Under the pieces are notes generated by a model. It was not told the DNA's origin, did no database searches, and saw nothing but the letters and a program-made list of their open reading frames with translations. Positions 21,446 to 56,629 of a stretch of 64,000 nt of DNA are shown here, one piece after another. Within the stretch, counting starts at the first letter, position 1, and each line of letters starts with the position of its first letter. Origin of the DNA: a virus. A program made the position numbers and the translations under genes. The stretch is taken from the IMG/VR virus record IMGVR_UViG_3300009419_000013, positions 1-64,000 of that record. The stretch is one strand, 5' to 3'.

Positions 21446-21467
21446 AACTGTAAAAAAAAATTTAACC

Positions 21468-23639
21468 ATGGACTTCATAAACCAAGTAAAAAAATTAAAA
21501 GAAGTAACTAAATCACCTGAGGTTAGAACTCTATGTGAAAGTTTTCTTAGCGGAGGATCAGTTTCGGAGAGCGATCTAGTTAAATCTATTAATGAACATA
21601 ATATAACTCCAGACTTCGTATCTAACACACAAAATCATTTAGATATGATAAGAAAAGAGGAGGCAGAACTTTCTAAAAAGAATGCTGCAGCTCTTATGGA
21701 ATCTTGGGGTGGTTTGAAAAATGCATCTTTAAACAATGCAGGATCATACATCTCTAGAAAAGAAGAGAAAGAAGATAGATCACTTTTAGAAAGCTTATCA
21801 CAATTAGAGGGAAGTAATTTAGATTCTACTGCTAAATCATTTATCAAATCACAAGAGGTAAATAATTTAGGAATAAGATTAGCATTAAATTCTATTAAAG
21901 AATCTTCAATTTATAGCTATCCAAAAGCTAAAATTATGGTTGAACAATATAGTAATCTTTTGGAAAATAAAGGAGTCCCTGAATTTTCTTTGGTTCATAA
22001 TTTTCTAAATGATATTAAATCTTTATCTTGGGATAAAGACGTAGCTCAAGTTGCTGAATCTGTTAAGGAGAAATCTGAATCATTGAGCAGAGAAATAGAG
22101 GTAGCTAAAGTTTTAGAGGCTTTAAAGAACAGCGGTAACTCTTCATTCTATTCTGAATTAAACGAAACCTTGAATGATTGGTTGGTATCTGAAGAAAAAT
22201 CTAATGGCCTACTTGTTAGAAATATTTCGAAATGGAATTTCAATCCGATGGTTAGAGGATTAATAAACTATCTTAATGTTAATGAAACTGAAGATAAAAG
22301 AAAATTAGAAATTCCTGAAATGATACAGGGAGAATCTAGTGTATCGAGAGTATACTCTCCAGTTTTATTAGAAAATGGTAGATCCCTATTTTACCTAGGT
22401 GGATTCATATTTGAGGCTAATGAAGACGGTTTAAGAAAAATATCAGATAAAGAAATATCATCATTGCCACAGGAATATCTTTCATTAGTTTATACCTATG
22501 GTAAAAAACATGTTAGAGTTAATGAAAATGGAATCTTTATTAAATTAGGAAAAAGCATAGTTAGACTGGTTGAAGAAAATGACGAGGTAACTGCTTATAT
22601 GGGAAAAACTAGATTGAAATTTAGTGATCCTAGTGGTCTTGCTAAAATTGTTGGATTGGAATCAGGGTCTTATTTCGGAGTTAATGAATCTGATGTAGTT
22701 AATGACATAATGAATCTTTATACTAATTACAGTAACATCGTAGAATTAGACTTTGCTAAAAGTTTAACATCTAATGTATATGAAGGAGTTGGAGTTAATT
22801 TATTCAAATGGATGGATCAAATTTATCTTCAGAAGATAAATGATTCAATGAATGAGAATTCAATACATAAAGTAACTGGAACACAAGCAGTTTCGGTTGT
22901 TAAAAATTATCTTAGATATGACATCTCTGAAGGTTTAACAGAATTTTTAGAAGGTGAAAGTAAGGTTAAATCTGTTATGATCAACGATAGAGAGAAAGTT
23001 ATTTCAAACATATCTAAAGTTGATGAAGAATTAAATAAAATAAATACACTAATAGGATCAAGCCCACTATACGGTGAATCAGATCAGATTAAAGCAGCTA
23101 AAAAAATGCTTGAATCCGAACTTGTTATGCTAAGAGAAAAGTGGAACCAAATAAATCTTGAAATTGAAAAGATAGATCTTGATATTAACATAAGTGGAAG
23201 CTTAGATTTATTCGAGGATGAAAAATTTAATATCGGTTCTTACATAAAGGTTAAGGAGTCTGGGGAGACTGGAAAAATTATATCTATGGATGGTACATCA
23301 GGAAGATATACAGTATTACTAGACAACGGTAAGACATCTGACTTTTTAATAAATGAAATTAGTGATCTTGAGGAAGCATTATCTCAGGCAGCTGAAAAGA
23401 ATGCTGAATCGTCTGACGAAGATGGTGAGGAAGAGGTTAAAGAATCTAATAATCTTAATAAATCAGATCTTTCAATAGAGGAGCAAAAAAATATACTAAA
23501 GAATTTTGCTAATATGCACGGATTTACTAAAGCACCTAAAGGTGAAACGGAAGAAAAAATAGAACTAGGCTTAGATAGCTTACACGGTTACAATATTTCG
23601 ATGAATGAAGAATCTAGTGAAGATTTAAAAAAAAAGTAA
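21468..23639 (+). CDS. Large head-associated protein with probable -1 frameshift extension
   Basis: 723 residues in the zero frame, mostly helical and charged, with no membrane segment. Residues about 270-430 form a beta-rich part (SVSRVYSPVLLENGRSLFYL, AYMGKTRLKFSD). Residues about 515-580 are coiled coil. Residues about 590-630 look like a small SH3-like barrel (YIKVKESGETGKIISMDG, YTVLLDNGKTSDF). The C-terminus is acidic. It contains a VNES tetrapeptide like those in other head proteins, suggesting prohead protease processing. The frame stops at 23637-23639 immediately after A AAA AAG, the dnaX-type slippery sequence. I do not recognise the family; a scaffold or internal head protein is my best guess. 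Confidence 0.6.
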   Translation: MDFINQVKKLKEVTKSPEVRTLCESFLSGGSVSESDLVKSINEHNITPDFVSNTQNHLDMIRKEEAELSKKNAAALMESWGGLKNASLNNAGSYISRKEEKEDRSLLESLSQLEGSNLDSTAKSFIKSQEVNNLGIRLALNSIKESSIYSYPKAKIMVEQYSNLLENKGVPEFSLVHNFLNDIKSLSWDKDVAQVAESVKEKSESLSREIEVAKVLEALKNSGNSSFYSELNETLNDWLVSEEKSNGLLVRNISKWNFNPMVRGLINYLNVNETEDKRKLEIPEMIQGESSVSRVYSPVLLENGRSLFYLGGFIFEANEDGLRKISDKEISSLPQEYLSLVYTYGKKHVRVNENGIFIKLGKSIVRLVEENDEVTAYMGKTRLKFSDPSGLAKIVGLESGSYFGVNESDVVNDIMNLYTNYSNIVELDFAKSLTSNVYEGVGVNLFKWMDQIYLQKINDSMNENSIHKVTGTQAVSVVKNYLRYDISEGLTEFLEGESKVKSVMINDREKVISNISKVDEELNKINTLIGSSPLYGESDQIKAAKKMLESELVMLREKWNQINLEIEKIDLDINISGSLDLFEDEKFNIGSYIKVKESGETGKIISMDGTSGRYTVLLDNGKTSDFLINEISDLEEALSQAAEKNAESSDEDGEEEVKESNNLNKSDLSIEEQKNILKNFANMHGFTKAPKGETEEKIELGLDSLHGYNISMNEESSEDLKKK

Positions 23640-23791
23640 GCCGTAACTTTTATTTTGCTCCTAAGGGGGAAAATCAGAATAAACCAGGCGAGACTTTTGT
23701 TCAATCTTCTGATGGTAAATTAAGTAAAGCTCCCGATGGCAAAGAAATAGAATCCTCCGACGAAGACGAGGAGGAAGAGGATAAGGAATAA
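23629..23791 (+). other. -1 frameshift site (A AAA AAG) and 51-residue C-terminal extension
   Basis: Nine A at 23627-23635 followed by G place the heptamer A AAA AAG (about 23630-23636) in the zero frame directly before the TAA stop. A -1 slip continues through a 51-residue open frame (from GTA at 23636 to the stop at 23789-23791). The extension contains KLSKAPDGKEIESSDEDEEE, close in composition to the C-terminus of the main frame. Its stop falls at the base of the terminator hairpin, as a real gene end would. A true single-base deletion or a base-calling error in the A run would give the same picture. Confidence 0.65.
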
Positions 23792-23826
23792 AAAGAATGT
23801 AGCTCATGAGCTACATTCTTTTTTTA
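23791..23826 (+). terminator. Terminator after the frameshift gene
   Basis: A perfect 14-bp stem (23791-23804 with 23809-23822), a 4-base loop and a T run. Confidence 0.92.
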
Positions 23827-23880: not shown

Positions 23881-24240
23881 ATGGCTAAAGAATATGTTAA
23901 AAACAGCGAGCTTTTAGCAGCTGTAATAGAATCTAAAAGTAAGGGTCAACTTACACCCGATACAATAGATATGTTTATGTTAATGATAAACGGAATATCT
24001 AAAAAAATGTCATATAAGGATCCGGAGGATAAAGAGGATTGTATGGCATTTGCAATGGAGGATCTTTGTAAATATTGGAATAGATTTAATCCTGAAAAAT
24101 CAAATAATCCATTTGCTTATTATACACAGATAGCTAAAAATGGATTTGCTAAGGGATGGAAAAAAATACATCCTCCGAAAAATCCTAAAACAATACCTTT
24201 TAGCTATATAACGGGTGAGGATAATTCGTATAACGTTTAA
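23881..24240 (+). CDS. gp55: Late transcription sigma factor (gp55-like)
   Basis: 119 residues (T4 gp55 is 185). It matches the gp55 core from memory: YVKNSELLAAVIE at the start, DTIDMFMLMINGISKKM, a helix with MAFAMEDLCKYWNRFNPEKS, then NPFAYYTQIAKNGFAKGWKK. The family is a reduced sigma-region-2 protein that directs host RNA polymerase to late promoters. The long C-terminal tail with the sliding-clamp-binding peptide of T4 gp55 is missing; the protein ends about 20 residues after the core. It is the natural candidate reader of the GATATATA sites. It follows a terminator, and its own promoter is not clear. Confidence 0.82.
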   Translation: MAKEYVKNSELLAAVIESKSKGQLTPDTIDMFMLMINGISKKMSYKDPEDKEDCMAFAMEDLCKYWNRFNPEKSNNPFAYYTQIAKNGFAKGWKKIHPPKNPKTIPFSYITGEDNSYNV

Positions 24241-25371: not shown

Positions 25372-26970
25372 ATGGCAGGTTTTGTAGATAATAATGATCC
25401 TTCTCAAACTCCGGTAATACAGAGAATTAGAGATTCTGTAAGAAAAATTAGTTCATTTGGTATGAAATACGATGACATGGTCATTCGTAATTCACAGGCT
25501 GTTGGTGTTACTGAGGCTGCTTTTCTTAATAAGAATAAGTCCAATGTCGAGGACGAAAGCATGCTATGGACCTTAGCTAAGCAGGATATATCATCCAGAC
25601 AATTTATAGGATATTTTGATAAGGACTATAAGGGAAAGAGAGACTATCTTAGAAAATTCTCATTAAATCCTGAAGTTGAATGGGTTCTTGATACCATATG
25701 TGACGAGGCAATATCTTATGATCCATCGAATTTCTTTGCTTATCCTGATTTCATAGATCTTAGCGACGTTAATGAAAAAATAAAGGAAGATTTATATGAC
25801 TCTTATAAAAAACTTTATGATGTTTGGGGATTTTCCGATGATATAACAGCTTGGCAATATTTCAGACAATTTATAATAGATGGATTTCTTGCATTTGAGA
25901 TAATCTATGATAATAAGGGTGATAATATAATCGGATTTAAGGAATTGGATCCAATTACACTTATACCTAGTGTGGAGAAACAAATAGATGGTAGCTATCT
26001 TAGCACCTGGACACAGTATCCTCAGGATCCCAAGAGAAAAAGAGTATTATATGATCCGCAAATCATCTACATATCATATGCTAAGGGTAATAGCATATCA
26101 AGAATTAGCTACATAGAAAGATTAATAAGACCTTATAATATTCTAAGAATTATAGAATATACTAGGGTTATATGGTCGGTCATGAATGCATCATTTAAAC
26201 TTAAGATGACCATTCCAATAGGAAGCAAATCCCAACAGAAGGGTATGCAAACTTTGGGTGAGTTAATGAGTATCTATAAGGAAGATATTCAGCTGAATGA
26301 TGATAGTGGTGAACTTACTGTGGATGGTAGACCTAAAATACAATTCTATAAGAATTATCTGATGCCTTCAGGTGTTAATGGTACACCAACTATAGAACCT
26401 ATAAATACTGAGGGTCCTAATCTTAATGATCCTCAGCCTTTATCATACTTCTTTGACAAGTACATCCTTGAATCTAAAGTTCCACCATCCAGATTTCATA
26501 ATCCTGATGGCGGAACAACTTCGCCATATTCAAATGGTGCGGAAGGACTTGATAAGGAGGAAATTAGATTTGCTAAATTTATATCTAGACTTAGATCGGT
26601 ATTTCAGGAGATATTACTAAAACCTTTATGGATACAGATGGTCAAGAAACATAAATCACTTGATGAGGATTTTATGTTTAAGAGTCAGCTTGGATTAGAT
26701 TACGTTTCTGATAACCCATTCAAATTAAATCAGGAGATGGATTTAATAAATAAAAGGAAGGAAGCAGTCGTTGCAATGACCGGATTAATGGGGGATGAGG
26801 AAAAACCATATTTCTCTAGCGCATTTCTTATAGAGACTTTTCTTGGAATATCTAAACAGGATATCGATGCTAATAAAGAGGCATTAGAAAGAAAAGAGAA
26901 GGAGAAGAAAAAAGAGGAAGGTAAAAAAGAAGAGGGTGGAGAAGAGGAAGCTCCAGAAGTAACACTATAA
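25372..26970 (+). CDS. gp20: Portal protein, copy 1 (gp20-like)
   Basis: 532 residues (T4 gp20 is 524). Portal features run in order: YDDMVIRNSQAVG near the N-terminus, RKFSLNPEVEWVLDTICDEA, FIIDGFLAFEIIYD, IIYISYAKGN, SYIERLIRPYNILRIIEYTRVIW, and the IQFYKNYLMP segment before the clip/crown. The dodecameric portal forms the DNA channel and binds terminase. The C-terminus is a Lys/Glu-rich tail ending EEAPEVTL. The next gene, five bases downstream, encodes a second complete portal. Confidence 0.9.
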   Translation: MAGFVDNNDPSQTPVIQRIRDSVRKISSFGMKYDDMVIRNSQAVGVTEAAFLNKNKSNVEDESMLWTLAKQDISSRQFIGYFDKDYKGKRDYLRKFSLNPEVEWVLDTICDEAISYDPSNFFAYPDFIDLSDVNEKIKEDLYDSYKKLYDVWGFSDDITAWQYFRQFIIDGFLAFEIIYDNKGDNIIGFKELDPITLIPSVEKQIDGSYLSTWTQYPQDPKRKRVLYDPQIIYISYAKGNSISRISYIERLIRPYNILRIIEYTRVIWSVMNASFKLKMTIPIGSKSQQKGMQTLGELMSIYKEDIQLNDDSGELTVDGRPKIQFYKNYLMPSGVNGTPTIEPINTEGPNLNDPQPLSYFFDKYILESKVPPSRFHNPDGGTTSPYSNGAEGLDKEEIRFAKFISRLRSVFQEILLKPLWIQMVKKHKSLDEDFMFKSQLGLDYVSDNPFKLNQEMDLINKRKEAVVAMTGLMGDEEKPYFSSAFLIETFLGISKQDIDANKEALERKEKEKKKEEGKKEEGGEEEAPEVTL

Positions 26971-26974
26971 TAAG

Positions 26975-28591
26975 ATGGCAGGATTTTTAGACTTTTTAAA
27001 ACCGAATCAATCAGCTTTAGGTAATATACTAAAGAATCTTGGAAACATATCAAAATTTGGTATGCAGTACGATGATATGGTTGTAAAAAATTCTCAGGCT
27101 ATTGGTAAGACTGAGGGATTTTTCTATAATCAGGATGGTAATGGGTTTACACAGAATGATGCTTTCTATTGGACATCATCGTATCAAGACACCAAGGTAA
27201 GAAAATATATTGCATATTTTGACCGTGATTATATCGAGAAGAGGAATTACCTTAGAAAATTTTCACTTAACGGTGAGATAGAGTTTATATTAGATACTAT
27301 AACTGATGAAGCAATAGTGTATGATGATAGAAATTATTTTGCTCAGCCATCGTTTATAAATCTTGATCTTAAGGATAAGGTAAAAGATAAGATCTCGGAG
27401 CATTACAATAAGATCTATAATGTATTTGGATTTCAGAACACAATACTTGGGTGGCAATATTTTAAACAGTTTCTAATTGATGGATTTCTTGCATTTGAAA
27501 TAATATATGATAGCAAGGGAAAAAATGTGATTGGATTTAAAGAATTGGACCCAACCTCTCTTCAGCCTATAGTAGAAAAGATTGGTGAGGAAGAACATAA
27601 ACAATTCTGGATTCAGTATCCAAAAAACCCACAAATGACCAGAAAGCTAACTAATGAGCAGGTCATTTATATTTCATATGCTAAGGGAAATATGATAACT
27701 AGAGTTAGTTATGTAGAAAGACTAGTTAGGTCATATAATATTCTTAGAATAATGGAGAATTCTAGAATTATATGGAACGTAATGAATTCGTCATATAGAT
27801 TGAAATTTATTATACCTATTGGTACACAGTCTCAACAAAAAGCAATGCAGAATCTTGGTCAGTTAATGTCGAATTATAAGGAGGATATTAATATAAATGA
27901 TTCTTCTGGAGAATTAACAATAAACGGTAAACCCAAAATTCAATTCTATAAGAATTATTTATTTCCTGAAAAGGACGGTCAGAGTCCTCAGATAGAATCA
28001 CTTAATCCTAGTGGACCTGATTTTAATGTTATGGAGAATGTGGTTTATTTCTTCAATAAGCTTAAAATGGATTCAAAAATACCTTATGCTAGATTTGCAT
28101 CCAGAAATAGTACACCAGGTAATTATCAGACAAGCATAGATCAATTGGAAAGAGATGAAATTAGATTTGAAAAATTTCTGAGAAGACTTAGATCAATTTT
28201 CCAAGAGATATTAACTAAGCCTCTTTATATACAGATGTGTCTTGATAATCCCGAATTATCAAGGGATAAGAACTTTAAAGCAAATATAGGTCTTAATTAC
28301 AATAGAGACAGCGAATTCGAGGAAATGGTTGAAATGAGTAATTACACTAAGAGAACTGAATTTATAACTGGACTTGGCGAACTTAAGGTTAAGATAGGCG
28401 AGGAGGAGAAGGGATATTTCGATAAGAACTTTTTAATACAAAGATTTCTTGGTATGAACCCGGATCAAATAAGAATGAATGAAAAGTATAAGGAAGCTGA
28501 AGCAAAACTAGCTGAAAAAGCAGGCGGTGAAGCACCACCTGAAGGAGAAGCACCAGCTGAAGGCGAGGAAGCACCTGAGGTAACCCTATAA
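26975..28591 (+). CDS. gp20: Portal protein, copy 2 (gp20-like paralogue)
   Basis: 538 residues, alignable to copy 1 end to end without large gaps: FGMQYDDMVVKNSQAIG, YLRKFSLNGEIEFILDTITDEA, FLIDGFLAFEIIYD, VIYISYAKGNM, KPKIQFYKNYL. The two diverge through most of the sequence but share the last eight residues EEAPEVTL exactly. All portal blocks are kept, so this is not a pseudogene. Having two portal genes is unusual, since one portal ring sits at a single capsid vertex. A mixed ring, or different use at different assembly stages, is possible. Confidence 0.88.
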   Translation: MAGFLDFLKPNQSALGNILKNLGNISKFGMQYDDMVVKNSQAIGKTEGFFYNQDGNGFTQNDAFYWTSSYQDTKVRKYIAYFDRDYIEKRNYLRKFSLNGEIEFILDTITDEAIVYDDRNYFAQPSFINLDLKDKVKDKISEHYNKIYNVFGFQNTILGWQYFKQFLIDGFLAFEIIYDSKGKNVIGFKELDPTSLQPIVEKIGEEEHKQFWIQYPKNPQMTRKLTNEQVIYISYAKGNMITRVSYVERLVRSYNILRIMENSRIIWNVMNSSYRLKFIIPIGTQSQQKAMQNLGQLMSNYKEDININDSSGELTINGKPKIQFYKNYLFPEKDGQSPQIESLNPSGPDFNVMENVVYFFNKLKMDSKIPYARFASRNSTPGNYQTSIDQLERDEIRFEKFLRRLRSIFQEILTKPLYIQMCLDNPELSRDKNFKANIGLNYNRDSEFEEMVEMSNYTKRTEFITGLGELKVKIGEEEKGYFDKNFLIQRFLGMNPDQIRMNEKYKEAEAKLAEKAGGEAPPEGEAPAEGEEAPEVTL

Positions 28592-40370: not shown

Positions 40371-42341
40371 ATGCCAACAACCCAAAAGCTTAATGAAGAT
40401 TTAGTTTTCATCCTTGAAAGACAGGAGAGAGTACTTGAATCTAAGAAGACAGATTCGGAGGATGATTATGTTCTGGAAGGTATAGCAGCTGTTTTCGGAA
40501 AAGAAAACAATAATAATAGAATATACGAGGAAAATGAATATTTGCCTCATTTAGACTATCTTAAAGACAAAATCGCACAGAAGAGACTGGTTGGCGAATT
40601 GGATCATCCTGAAAAATTCGACGTTTCTCTTAAGAATATTTCTCATATTATAGAGGATCTCGCATATGATAAGGATAAGAGAGAACTTAAAATAAAGGTT
40701 AGACTTCTTGATACACCAGCTGGTATTATAGCTAAGAAATTAGTTGATGCCGGAGTACCACTTTCAATATCATCAAGAGCAGCTGGTTCAGTTGGTAATG
40801 ATAAAAAGGTTCAGATCAAGAAAATATTTACTTATGATTTAGTTGCTGATCCTGGTTTTCAGGATGCACAATTGGAAAGAGTATATGAAAGTGCAGGATT
40901 TAGTTTCGAAGACGTTTATAAAATGAGAAACAATACAATTTTAAACGGATTAACTTGCGTTAATGAATCTTTCGGTCTTAAAAATGAATCTTCAATGAAG
41001 ATATATAAAGTTGAAAATAACGAAGAATTCAACAATCTCGTAACAAAAACAGAAAAAAATAAAGAAATCCTTATGGAGAATAAAGAATTTGTTACTGCTG
41101 ATGACCTAAATCAATATTCTATTTTCTTGAAGAAAGAAATGGATTCAATGAAATCGGCTATAGCAGAAATTAACGAAAAGAGAGACTCAATTCAAGAATC
41201 TGAAAAAACATCTAATGATGATGTTGTTACAGCATTGGAAGAAAGAGTAGCTAAATTGGAAAAATATTCTGAGTACTTAGCTGAAAACTTAGATAACGCA
41301 ATTAAGTATGGAGAATACGTTGCTGAAAATCTAGATCAAAACATAACATATTCTAAGTATTTAGCTGAGAATTTGGATAAAAACATTTCTTATTCTAAAT
41401 ATTTAGCTGAGAATGTTGATAAATCTATATCTTATTCTGAATATGTAGCGGAGAGTGTAGATAAGAATATAGAGTATTCTAAATATTTAGCTGAAAAGGT
41501 AGATCAAAATATTTCATATTCTGAATACTTAGCTGAAAATGTTGATAATAGTATTTCTTACAGCGAGCACTTAGCAGAAAACTTAAATAAAGGTATTGCT
41601 TATACTGAATACGTTGCAGAAAAATTAAACGATGGTATCGAATATGCCGAGTATTTAGGAGAAAATCTAAATAAAAATATTCAATATTCAGACTATTTAG
41701 CTGAAAATCTAAATAAAGGTTTAGATTATTCTGAGTATTTAGCTGAAAAAGTTAAAAGATCTATATCTTACAGTGAATATATAGCAGAAAGCTTAAATAA
41801 TTCTGATATGAAATCAGTAGGACAAGATTTAATGGAAAGTGCATCAGTATCAGCATCAGCAGGTTTAAACGAATCTGGATTTGCAGGTAATTATGACAAC
41901 CTTTCAGACAAAATTGATAGTTTGGTAGAATCAGTTAAAACACAAAAAACTGAATCAAATATAAACGAAGCTTCAAAATCATTTGAAGCGCCAGCCAACA
42001 CACAAAAGGCACAAGAATCAGCTCTTAATGAAAACGAGAGCACAACAAAAACAGGTCTTAAGTTTATTGACGAAATGCCTGAAGAATTTGCACAAGTTTG
42101 GGAATCACTTAATGAAGGACACAAGCAATCAATCGTTGCTCAAAGTAACTTCTATAGATTAGATTCTCCTTACCAAATCAAAAACTTCTGGTCAACAAGA
42201 CAACTTGGAACCAAAACAGTTGGAGTTCAAAAATTGAACGAGAGCGAAGAAACAGTGCCAAGTGCAACAACACAAGCTTATTCAAGCGATTACATGGCTT
42301 CGATAGCTGCTGCACTAGAGCAAAAATTTCCAAAAAGATAA
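40371..42341 (+). CDS. gp21: Prohead protease fused to a repeat scaffold (gp21-gp22-like)
   Basis: 656 residues; T4 gp21 alone is 212. Residues 1-190 are the protease, with the catalytic His in GELDHPE (H79) and the Ser in SISSR (132-136). Residues 298-479 are thirteen 14-residue repeats of the type YSEYLAENLDKNI, a heptad-like coiled coil. Residues 560-656 form a C-terminal domain ahead of the capsid gene. Sites of the form VNES (197-200), LNES (499-502), INEA, LNEG and LNES fall between these parts. They suggest self-cleavage that frees the protease and breaks up the scaffold. In T4 the protease (gp21) and main scaffold (gp22) are separate proteins. Confidence 0.85.
   Translation: MPTTQKLNEDLVFILERQERVLESKKTDSEDDYVLEGIAAVFGKENNNNRIYEENEYLPHLDYLKDKIAQKRLVGELDHPEKFDVSLKNISHIIEDLAYDKDKRELKIKVRLLDTPAGIIAKKLVDAGVPLSISSRAAGSVGNDKKVQIKKIFTYDLVADPGFQDAQLERVYESAGFSFEDVYKMRNNTILNGLTCVNESFGLKNESSMKIYKVENNEEFNNLVTKTEKNKEILMENKEFVTADDLNQYSIFLKKEMDSMKSAIAEINEKRDSIQESEKTSNDDVVTALEERVAKLEKYSEYLAENLDNAIKYGEYVAENLDQNITYSKYLAENLDKNISYSKYLAENVDKSISYSEYVAESVDKNIEYSKYLAEKVDQNISYSEYLAENVDNSISYSEHLAENLNKGIAYTEYVAEKLNDGIEYAEYLGENLNKNIQYSDYLAENLNKGLDYSEYLAEKVKRSISYSEYIAESLNNSDMKSVGQDLMESASVSASAGLNESGFAGNYDNLSDKIDSLVESVKTQKTESNINEASKSFEAPANTQKAQESALNENESTTKTGLKFIDEMPEEFAQVWESLNEGHKQSIVAQSNFYRLDSPYQIKNFWSTRQLGTKTVGVQKLNESEETVPSATTQAYSSDYMASIAAALEQKFPKR
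41262..41807 (+). repeat. Thirteen 42-bp coding repeats in the scaffold region
   Basis: Thirteen in-frame units of 14 codons (consensus [SE]YS[EK]Y[LV]AEN[LV][DN]K[NG]I). The DNA of the units has diverged more than the protein, so the array is old and under selection at the protein level. Confidence 0.9.
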
Positions 42342-56289: not shown

Positions 56290-56608
56290 AATGAAGATAA
56301 ATTTCTATATATCTAGATATTCTCCCAAGGAAGCTAAAAAAAGATCGACATACGGATCTGATTTTTATGTTGTTGATATAGCAAAGATAATAAGAGAACT
56401 TGGATATAGTACGGATGAACTTTCAGTAGAATCCGAATTTATCATAAATTACACTATTCGCAAGAAAATAATACAAGGAATATATAGTACAAAGTGTGAC
56501 GGTATACTTGTATGCTATAAGAATATATCTCCCGATTTTGTAGAAAATTTGGAGATCCTATTAGATGAATATTCAGAAGAATTCGAGTATGCTATCACAG
56601 ATCTTTAA
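56279..56608 (+). CDS. Unknown small protein
   Basis: 109 residues from the ATG at 56279; a second in-frame ATG at 56291 would shorten it by four residues. Alternating beta/alpha pattern (KINFYISRYS, FYVVDIAKIIRELGY, CDGILVCYKNIS). No motif recognised. It is the last small gene before the baseplate block. Confidence 0.45.
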   Translation: MESKMKINFYISRYSPKEAKKRSTYGSDFYVVDIAKIIRELGYSTDELSVESEFIINYTIRKKIIQGIYSTKCDGILVCYKNISPDFVENLEILLDEYSEEFEYAITDL

Positions 56609-56629
56609 AAAAAAAGATTTGTATAGTAA

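Follow-up and report, generated by a model that had tools for sequence, protein, structure and literature searches.

A conserved A9 slippage site predicted to extend a candidate prohead protein in related large uncultured phages

Introduction

The window analysed here, a stretch of 64,000 nt (positions 1 to 64,000 of the IMG/VR virus record IMGVR_UViG_3300009419_000013), contains a gene of 723 codons which ends in TTA AAA AAA AAG TAA and whose −1 frame stays open beyond the stop. This raises the question of whether the A run is a recoding site from which a second, longer protein is made and, if so, whether the ribosome or RNA polymerase slips on it, and what the function of such a protein pair may be. 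The initial annotation described a dnaX-type site, named transcriptional slippage as an alternative, and considered the product to be a head-associated protein in two forms.

Results

Organization of the site and its extension

Features of the locus are listed in Table 1. Two heptamers overlap in the 0 frame, A AAA AAA at 23627-23633 and A AAA AAG three nucleotides further on, the latter directly before the stop; all numbers given for this arrangement in the initial annotation hold. The −1 frame, which has a TGA at 23618-23620, opens at 23621 and ends with TAA at 23789-23791. Counted from GTA (23636) to GAA (23788), the extension comprises 51 residues, the length originally reported, and its termination at a terminator was likewise reproduced, the final TAA overlapping a perfect inverted repeat. 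A search against Pfam assigned the extension to no recognised family. In the family, the conserved tail is about 50-60 amino acids long and is composed of the motif SRNFYFAPK...FVQSS.GKLSKAPDGK or its relatives, followed by an acidic end. The module is present in one copy in each of 21 records.

Runs of nine A are rarer in the window than expected by chance (3 observed vs 9.5 expected), and the run at the slippage site is the only intragenic one. The other two, at 21452-21460 and 56607-56615, lie just upstream of gene starts.

Table 1 Features of the slippage locus and related features
Feature	Position	Strand	Basis or remark
Main ORF (short form), 723 aa	21468-23639	+	ORF, alignment, structure model, motif counts
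A9 slippage run	23627-23635	+	Length 9 or 10 in every cluster
Heptamer A AAA AAG, in frame	23630-23636	+	A AAA AAC/T in most relatives
0-frame stop TAA, directly 3' of the run	23637-23639	+	Relatives use TAA, TAG or TGA
−1 frame extension, 51 residues VSRNFYFAPKGENQNKPGETFVQSSDGKLSKAPDGKEIESSDEDEEEEDKE + stop	23636-23791	+	Frame reading, relatives, selection
Perfect 17-bp inverted repeat (17+17 nt), then T; terminator-like	23790-23823	.	Overlaps the extension stop
Next gene, late sigma factor-like (phrog_234)	23881-24240	+	Same neighbour in PTm1, 32% identity; in LR756500 by eye
Head maturation protease, long repetitive C-terminal part	40371-42341	+	Proposed enzyme cutting the main protein
Clade members with PF01471 insertion	L030 4001-6628; L032 4001-6793		

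Conservation of the site among relatives

To follow the site through the family, IMG/VR was scanned using the main protein as well as alignments built from it, and this retrieved relatives down to ~43% identity; their 3' ends were clustered at 85% nucleotide identity into 49 clusters. None of these has fewer than nine A. The full pattern NNA AAA AAA AAZ (Z being C, T or G) with an adjacent stop and a homologous −1 module was found in 44 of the 49 clusters, so that the comparison with relatives called for in the initial annotation revealed conservation of both the site and the module. Distributed over 45 lineages, the final codon is AAC in 33, AAT in 6, AAG in 5 and AAA in 1. The label “dnaX-type” thus suits the window, where A AAA AAG is present, but not the family, in which AAG is the final codon in only 5/45 lineages. 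A second search, anchored on the downstream module only and designed to accept 6-11 A, disclosed 57 distinct sites, 52 with nine A and 5 with ten.

Departures from the common pattern are of several kinds. The run is ten A long in L101 and in L091, where the stop also comes one codon later, while in L088 the run lies in another phase and is followed by a later stop. In the L104 clade the module is fused in frame and only the fused form is encoded. In the L032/L106 clade it forms an ORF of its own, which begins with ATG (MSSNKILDFF...) and follows a main gene with an earlier stop (the A run is at 7867 of L106). According to these sequences, the ratio of two forms is dispensable in some clades, one having the fused form only and another a separate ORF. 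In two single contigs, L042 and L113, the main ORF is broken early by a stop.

The separate ORF of the L032/L106 clade speaks for independent translation of the module, by re-initiation or from an overlapping gene and without any fusion. Opposed to this, ATG, GTG and TTG are absent upstream and in the first 12 codons of the −1 frame in all 44 of 44 representatives, making this explanation very improbable. Readthrough of the stop was rejected, as the 0 frame carries no coding signal after it.

Selection on the run, the stop and the module

The −1 frame of the extension has a pN/pS of 0.32, whereas the remaining two frames give 1.24 and 1.68, and differences in the module fall mostly at third positions of the −1 frame. 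On a tree of the 44 representatives, no Fitch change was observed at any of the nine A; these taxa were chosen for the motif and the zeros are therefore partly a matter of construction, yet no cluster goes below nine A. Positions −12 and −1 from the stop, which flank the run, changed 10 and 6 times. In the codon preceding the lysines the third base is always A, although the residue varies (S, L, V, Q); comparable codon columns on the tree changed 14 times on average and at least 8 times.

The stop is also maintained. In the −1 frame, only CTA, CTG, TTA or GTA occurs as the codon following the run, indicating that the 0-frame stop is held in place, while CTT and CTC, common elsewhere in the module, are never found in this position. 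From the sequences themselves it is established that the site is conserved, that the run and the −1 module are under selection and that the stop is kept.

A frameshift mutation, an error of sequencing or assembly within the A run, or phase variation of the run was also considered, homopolymer runs being error-prone. Nevertheless, five contigs recovered from other metagenomes and nearly identical to this one have the same A9, as do the 49 clusters, the 57 distinct sites include no A-run variant that would join the frames in the same context, and the −1 frame is under purifying selection. We regard such an origin as very improbable. The earlier reservation that the reads could contain ten A is in part answered by the five contigs, the agreement being at contig level. 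By this evidence the site is a real, selected recoding site and not an assembly error or a pseudogene, and the fusion very likely arises through recoding of some kind. For the suggested two forms differing in their C-terminal tail, support at the sequence level comes from a conserved slip site that leads into a coding −1 frame.

RNA polymerase or ribosome

Two mechanisms would generate nearly the same products. In the one we consider probable, most transcripts would contain nine A and yield the short protein, whose last residues before the adjacent stop are KKK or KKN. RNA polymerase, slipping on A9, would add one A in a fraction of transcripts, and this fraction would be read one base back into the longer protein with the conserved module and its acidic end. 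Slippage of bacterial RNA polymerase is efficient on a run of 9 A, and a selected run of about this length or more, the threshold for transcriptional slippage (PMC5009743), is what the family exhibits. In the other, which we hold to be possible, at clearly less than an even chance, the ribosome would undergo programmed −1 frameshifting on the two overlapping heptamers (A AAA AAA / A AAA AAN), aided by the 3'-adjacent stop.

Several features are in accordance with ribosomal slippage. The 0-frame phase of the run permits a heptamer in nearly all lineages, including the phase-shifted L088; the window site offers two overlapping heptamers in frame; the position of the stop is constant, whether it is TAA, TAG or TGA; and the exclusion of CTT and CTC from the first −1 codon can be read in the same way. 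In addition, IS elements use A AAA AAC without a known stimulator (PMC4066793). On the other hand, a single heptamer requires fewer than the nine invariant A, and the final codon in 39 of 45 lineages is AAC or AAT, at which shifting by E. coli ribosomes is poor (PMC4066793). No conserved stimulator was found either. A consensus RNA structure downstream is absent in one clade and limited to 5 pairs without covariation in the other, a downstream stem-loop of the dnaX type was not detected (single-sequence z near −0.5 to −1), and an unsystematic look just upstream of the site revealed no obvious Shine-Dalgarno (SD)-like stimulator. SD-like 4-mers are depleted at gene starts in this genome (1/49, against a background of 15%).

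It is the AAC/AAT codons in 39/45 lineages, the lack of a conserved hairpin and the depletion of SD-like sites that favour RNA polymerase, and transcriptional slippage in A9, put forward initially as the alternative, now appears the better of the two mechanisms. We infer that slippage occurs at some level and that RNA polymerase is its agent.

Architecture of the main protein

The main protein consists of a helical N-terminal part, beta domains, a coiled coil at residues ~497-571 and an acidic C-terminus, with a KOW/SH3-like fold at ~590-633 (a weak fold match). Comparisons with Pfam, PHROGs, PDB sequences and PDB folds gave nothing firm. The AlphaFold model is weak (pLDDT 67, pTM 0.33) and matches uncharacterised phage proteins, one of which, from Tenacibaculum phage PTm1, is as long as ORF-242. 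We took ORF-242 of PTm1 to be the counterpart on the basis of Foldseek and the shared sigma neighbour, the profile search having missed it. Judged by the protein ends, neither ORF-242 nor LR756500 carries the module.

In one clade, the main protein carries an insertion of one or two PF01471 peptidoglycan-binding domains at about residue 120 (Table 1). The C-terminal region, e.g. residues 700-911 of L166, contains repeated LAEAPG-like units and GYN(L/I)xE(S/A) motifs, the number of which varies between relatives.

Putative prohead protease sites

The motif of the T4 prohead protease is L/I-X-E (PMC9026906), and we scored it as [LI]xE[SAG], i.e. with a small residue following. The main protein in the window contains seven such motifs. 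In the family, 13.4 were observed vs 3.2 expected (z 6), with respaced and reversed controls near 0; [VF]xE[SAG] is likewise enriched (z 3.6), and part of the signal may be a general sequence property. The window ORF itself has a modest excess (z 2.3) and ranks fourth there, with capsid and protease ORFs in the lead. Within PTm1, the counterpart (z 7.3) comes second, after the prohead core/protease ORF (z 12). In 40 of 48 representatives, a motif site falls no more than 26 residues ahead of the slip. Multiple putative L/I-X-E sites, as in prohead core proteins of the T4 type, are thus present, and they suggest that the main protein is a prohead core protein. “Head-associated”, a guess in the initial annotation, gains some plausibility from this enrichment. 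Searches of PHROGs and PDB gave no match to gp22, gp67, gp68 or internal proteins, and in PTm1 the counterpart gene has a DNA polymerase gene and a sigma factor gene as neighbours instead of head genes.

Neighbourhood and host

Two tandem portal protein genes, 51% identical, are located in the window at 25372-26970 and 26975-28591. The best-scoring portal relatives belong to huge phages without an assigned host, Lak phages of Prevotella, PTm1 of Tenacibaculum and PAU of Sphingomonas. A scan of bacterial genomes with the main protein found no relative, and so no direct host. Portal relatives, together with the lack of SD sites, which fits Bacteroidota, point to a host in this phylum. A link to published Bacteroidetes phages through bS21 was discarded, bS21 being found in 1 of 10 records.

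Discussion

The closest parallels to the proposed polymerase slippage are bacterial genes, whereas the site described here is conserved across many phage lineages. Citrobacter rodentium tssM1 and Thermus thermophilus dnaX likewise use an A run (11 and 9, respectively) to make two length variants (PMC4256274, PMC5009743). In tssM1, RNA polymerase slippage of 20-25% proceeds without a stimulatory RNA structure or SD and the slipped product is the longer one, as here, although its run is situated 28 nt before its stop (PMC4256274) and does not abut it. E. coli dnaX shares A AAA AAG with the window. It differs in that its shift leads to a shorter product, in its downstream hairpin, of which no conserved equivalent was found, and in the AAC/AAT of most relatives.

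Among phages, coat proteins of T7/T3, Lactobacillus A2 and Listeria PSA also occur in two forms, a short one and one that is extended at the C-terminus through a shift near the stop, but these are major coat or tail proteins (PMC5009743) and the one studied here represents another family. Purifying selection in the shifted frame is in line with a frame-extended phage structural protein. T4 gp22, gp67 and gp68 are also rich in L/I-x-E sites throughout, with the protease encoded in the same genome (PMC9026906); the main protein has no sequence match to them in PHROGs or PDB.

We infer a location in the prohead and a role of the tail there. The main protein would reside in the prohead interior and be a substrate of the gp21-type head protease, with cleavage at L/I-x-E, the slip would set the number of copies carrying the extra tail, and this tail may bind the shell, the portal or another core protein. 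Taken as a whole, the proposal that programmed RNA polymerase slippage makes short and long forms of a prohead-interior protein is slightly less secure than the mechanism alone and still leans towards being correct. More tentatively, and with somewhat less than even confidence, it may be extended to a widespread group of large T4-related phages, probably of Bacteroidota, in which RNA polymerase slippage on the strictly conserved A9 would serve as a dosage device in head assembly, setting the ratio of two proteolysed forms of a core protein, the slipped tail docking or being released by the head protease.

If programmed RNA polymerase slippage operates here, the locus provides a testable case of it in a tailed phage, the known examples we found being ribosomal. 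The natural series of AAG, AAC, AAT, fused and separate arrangements would be useful in telling the two mechanisms apart. An unannotated protein is flagged as a candidate prohead component, and gene calls in this large uncultured phage group would miss its tail.
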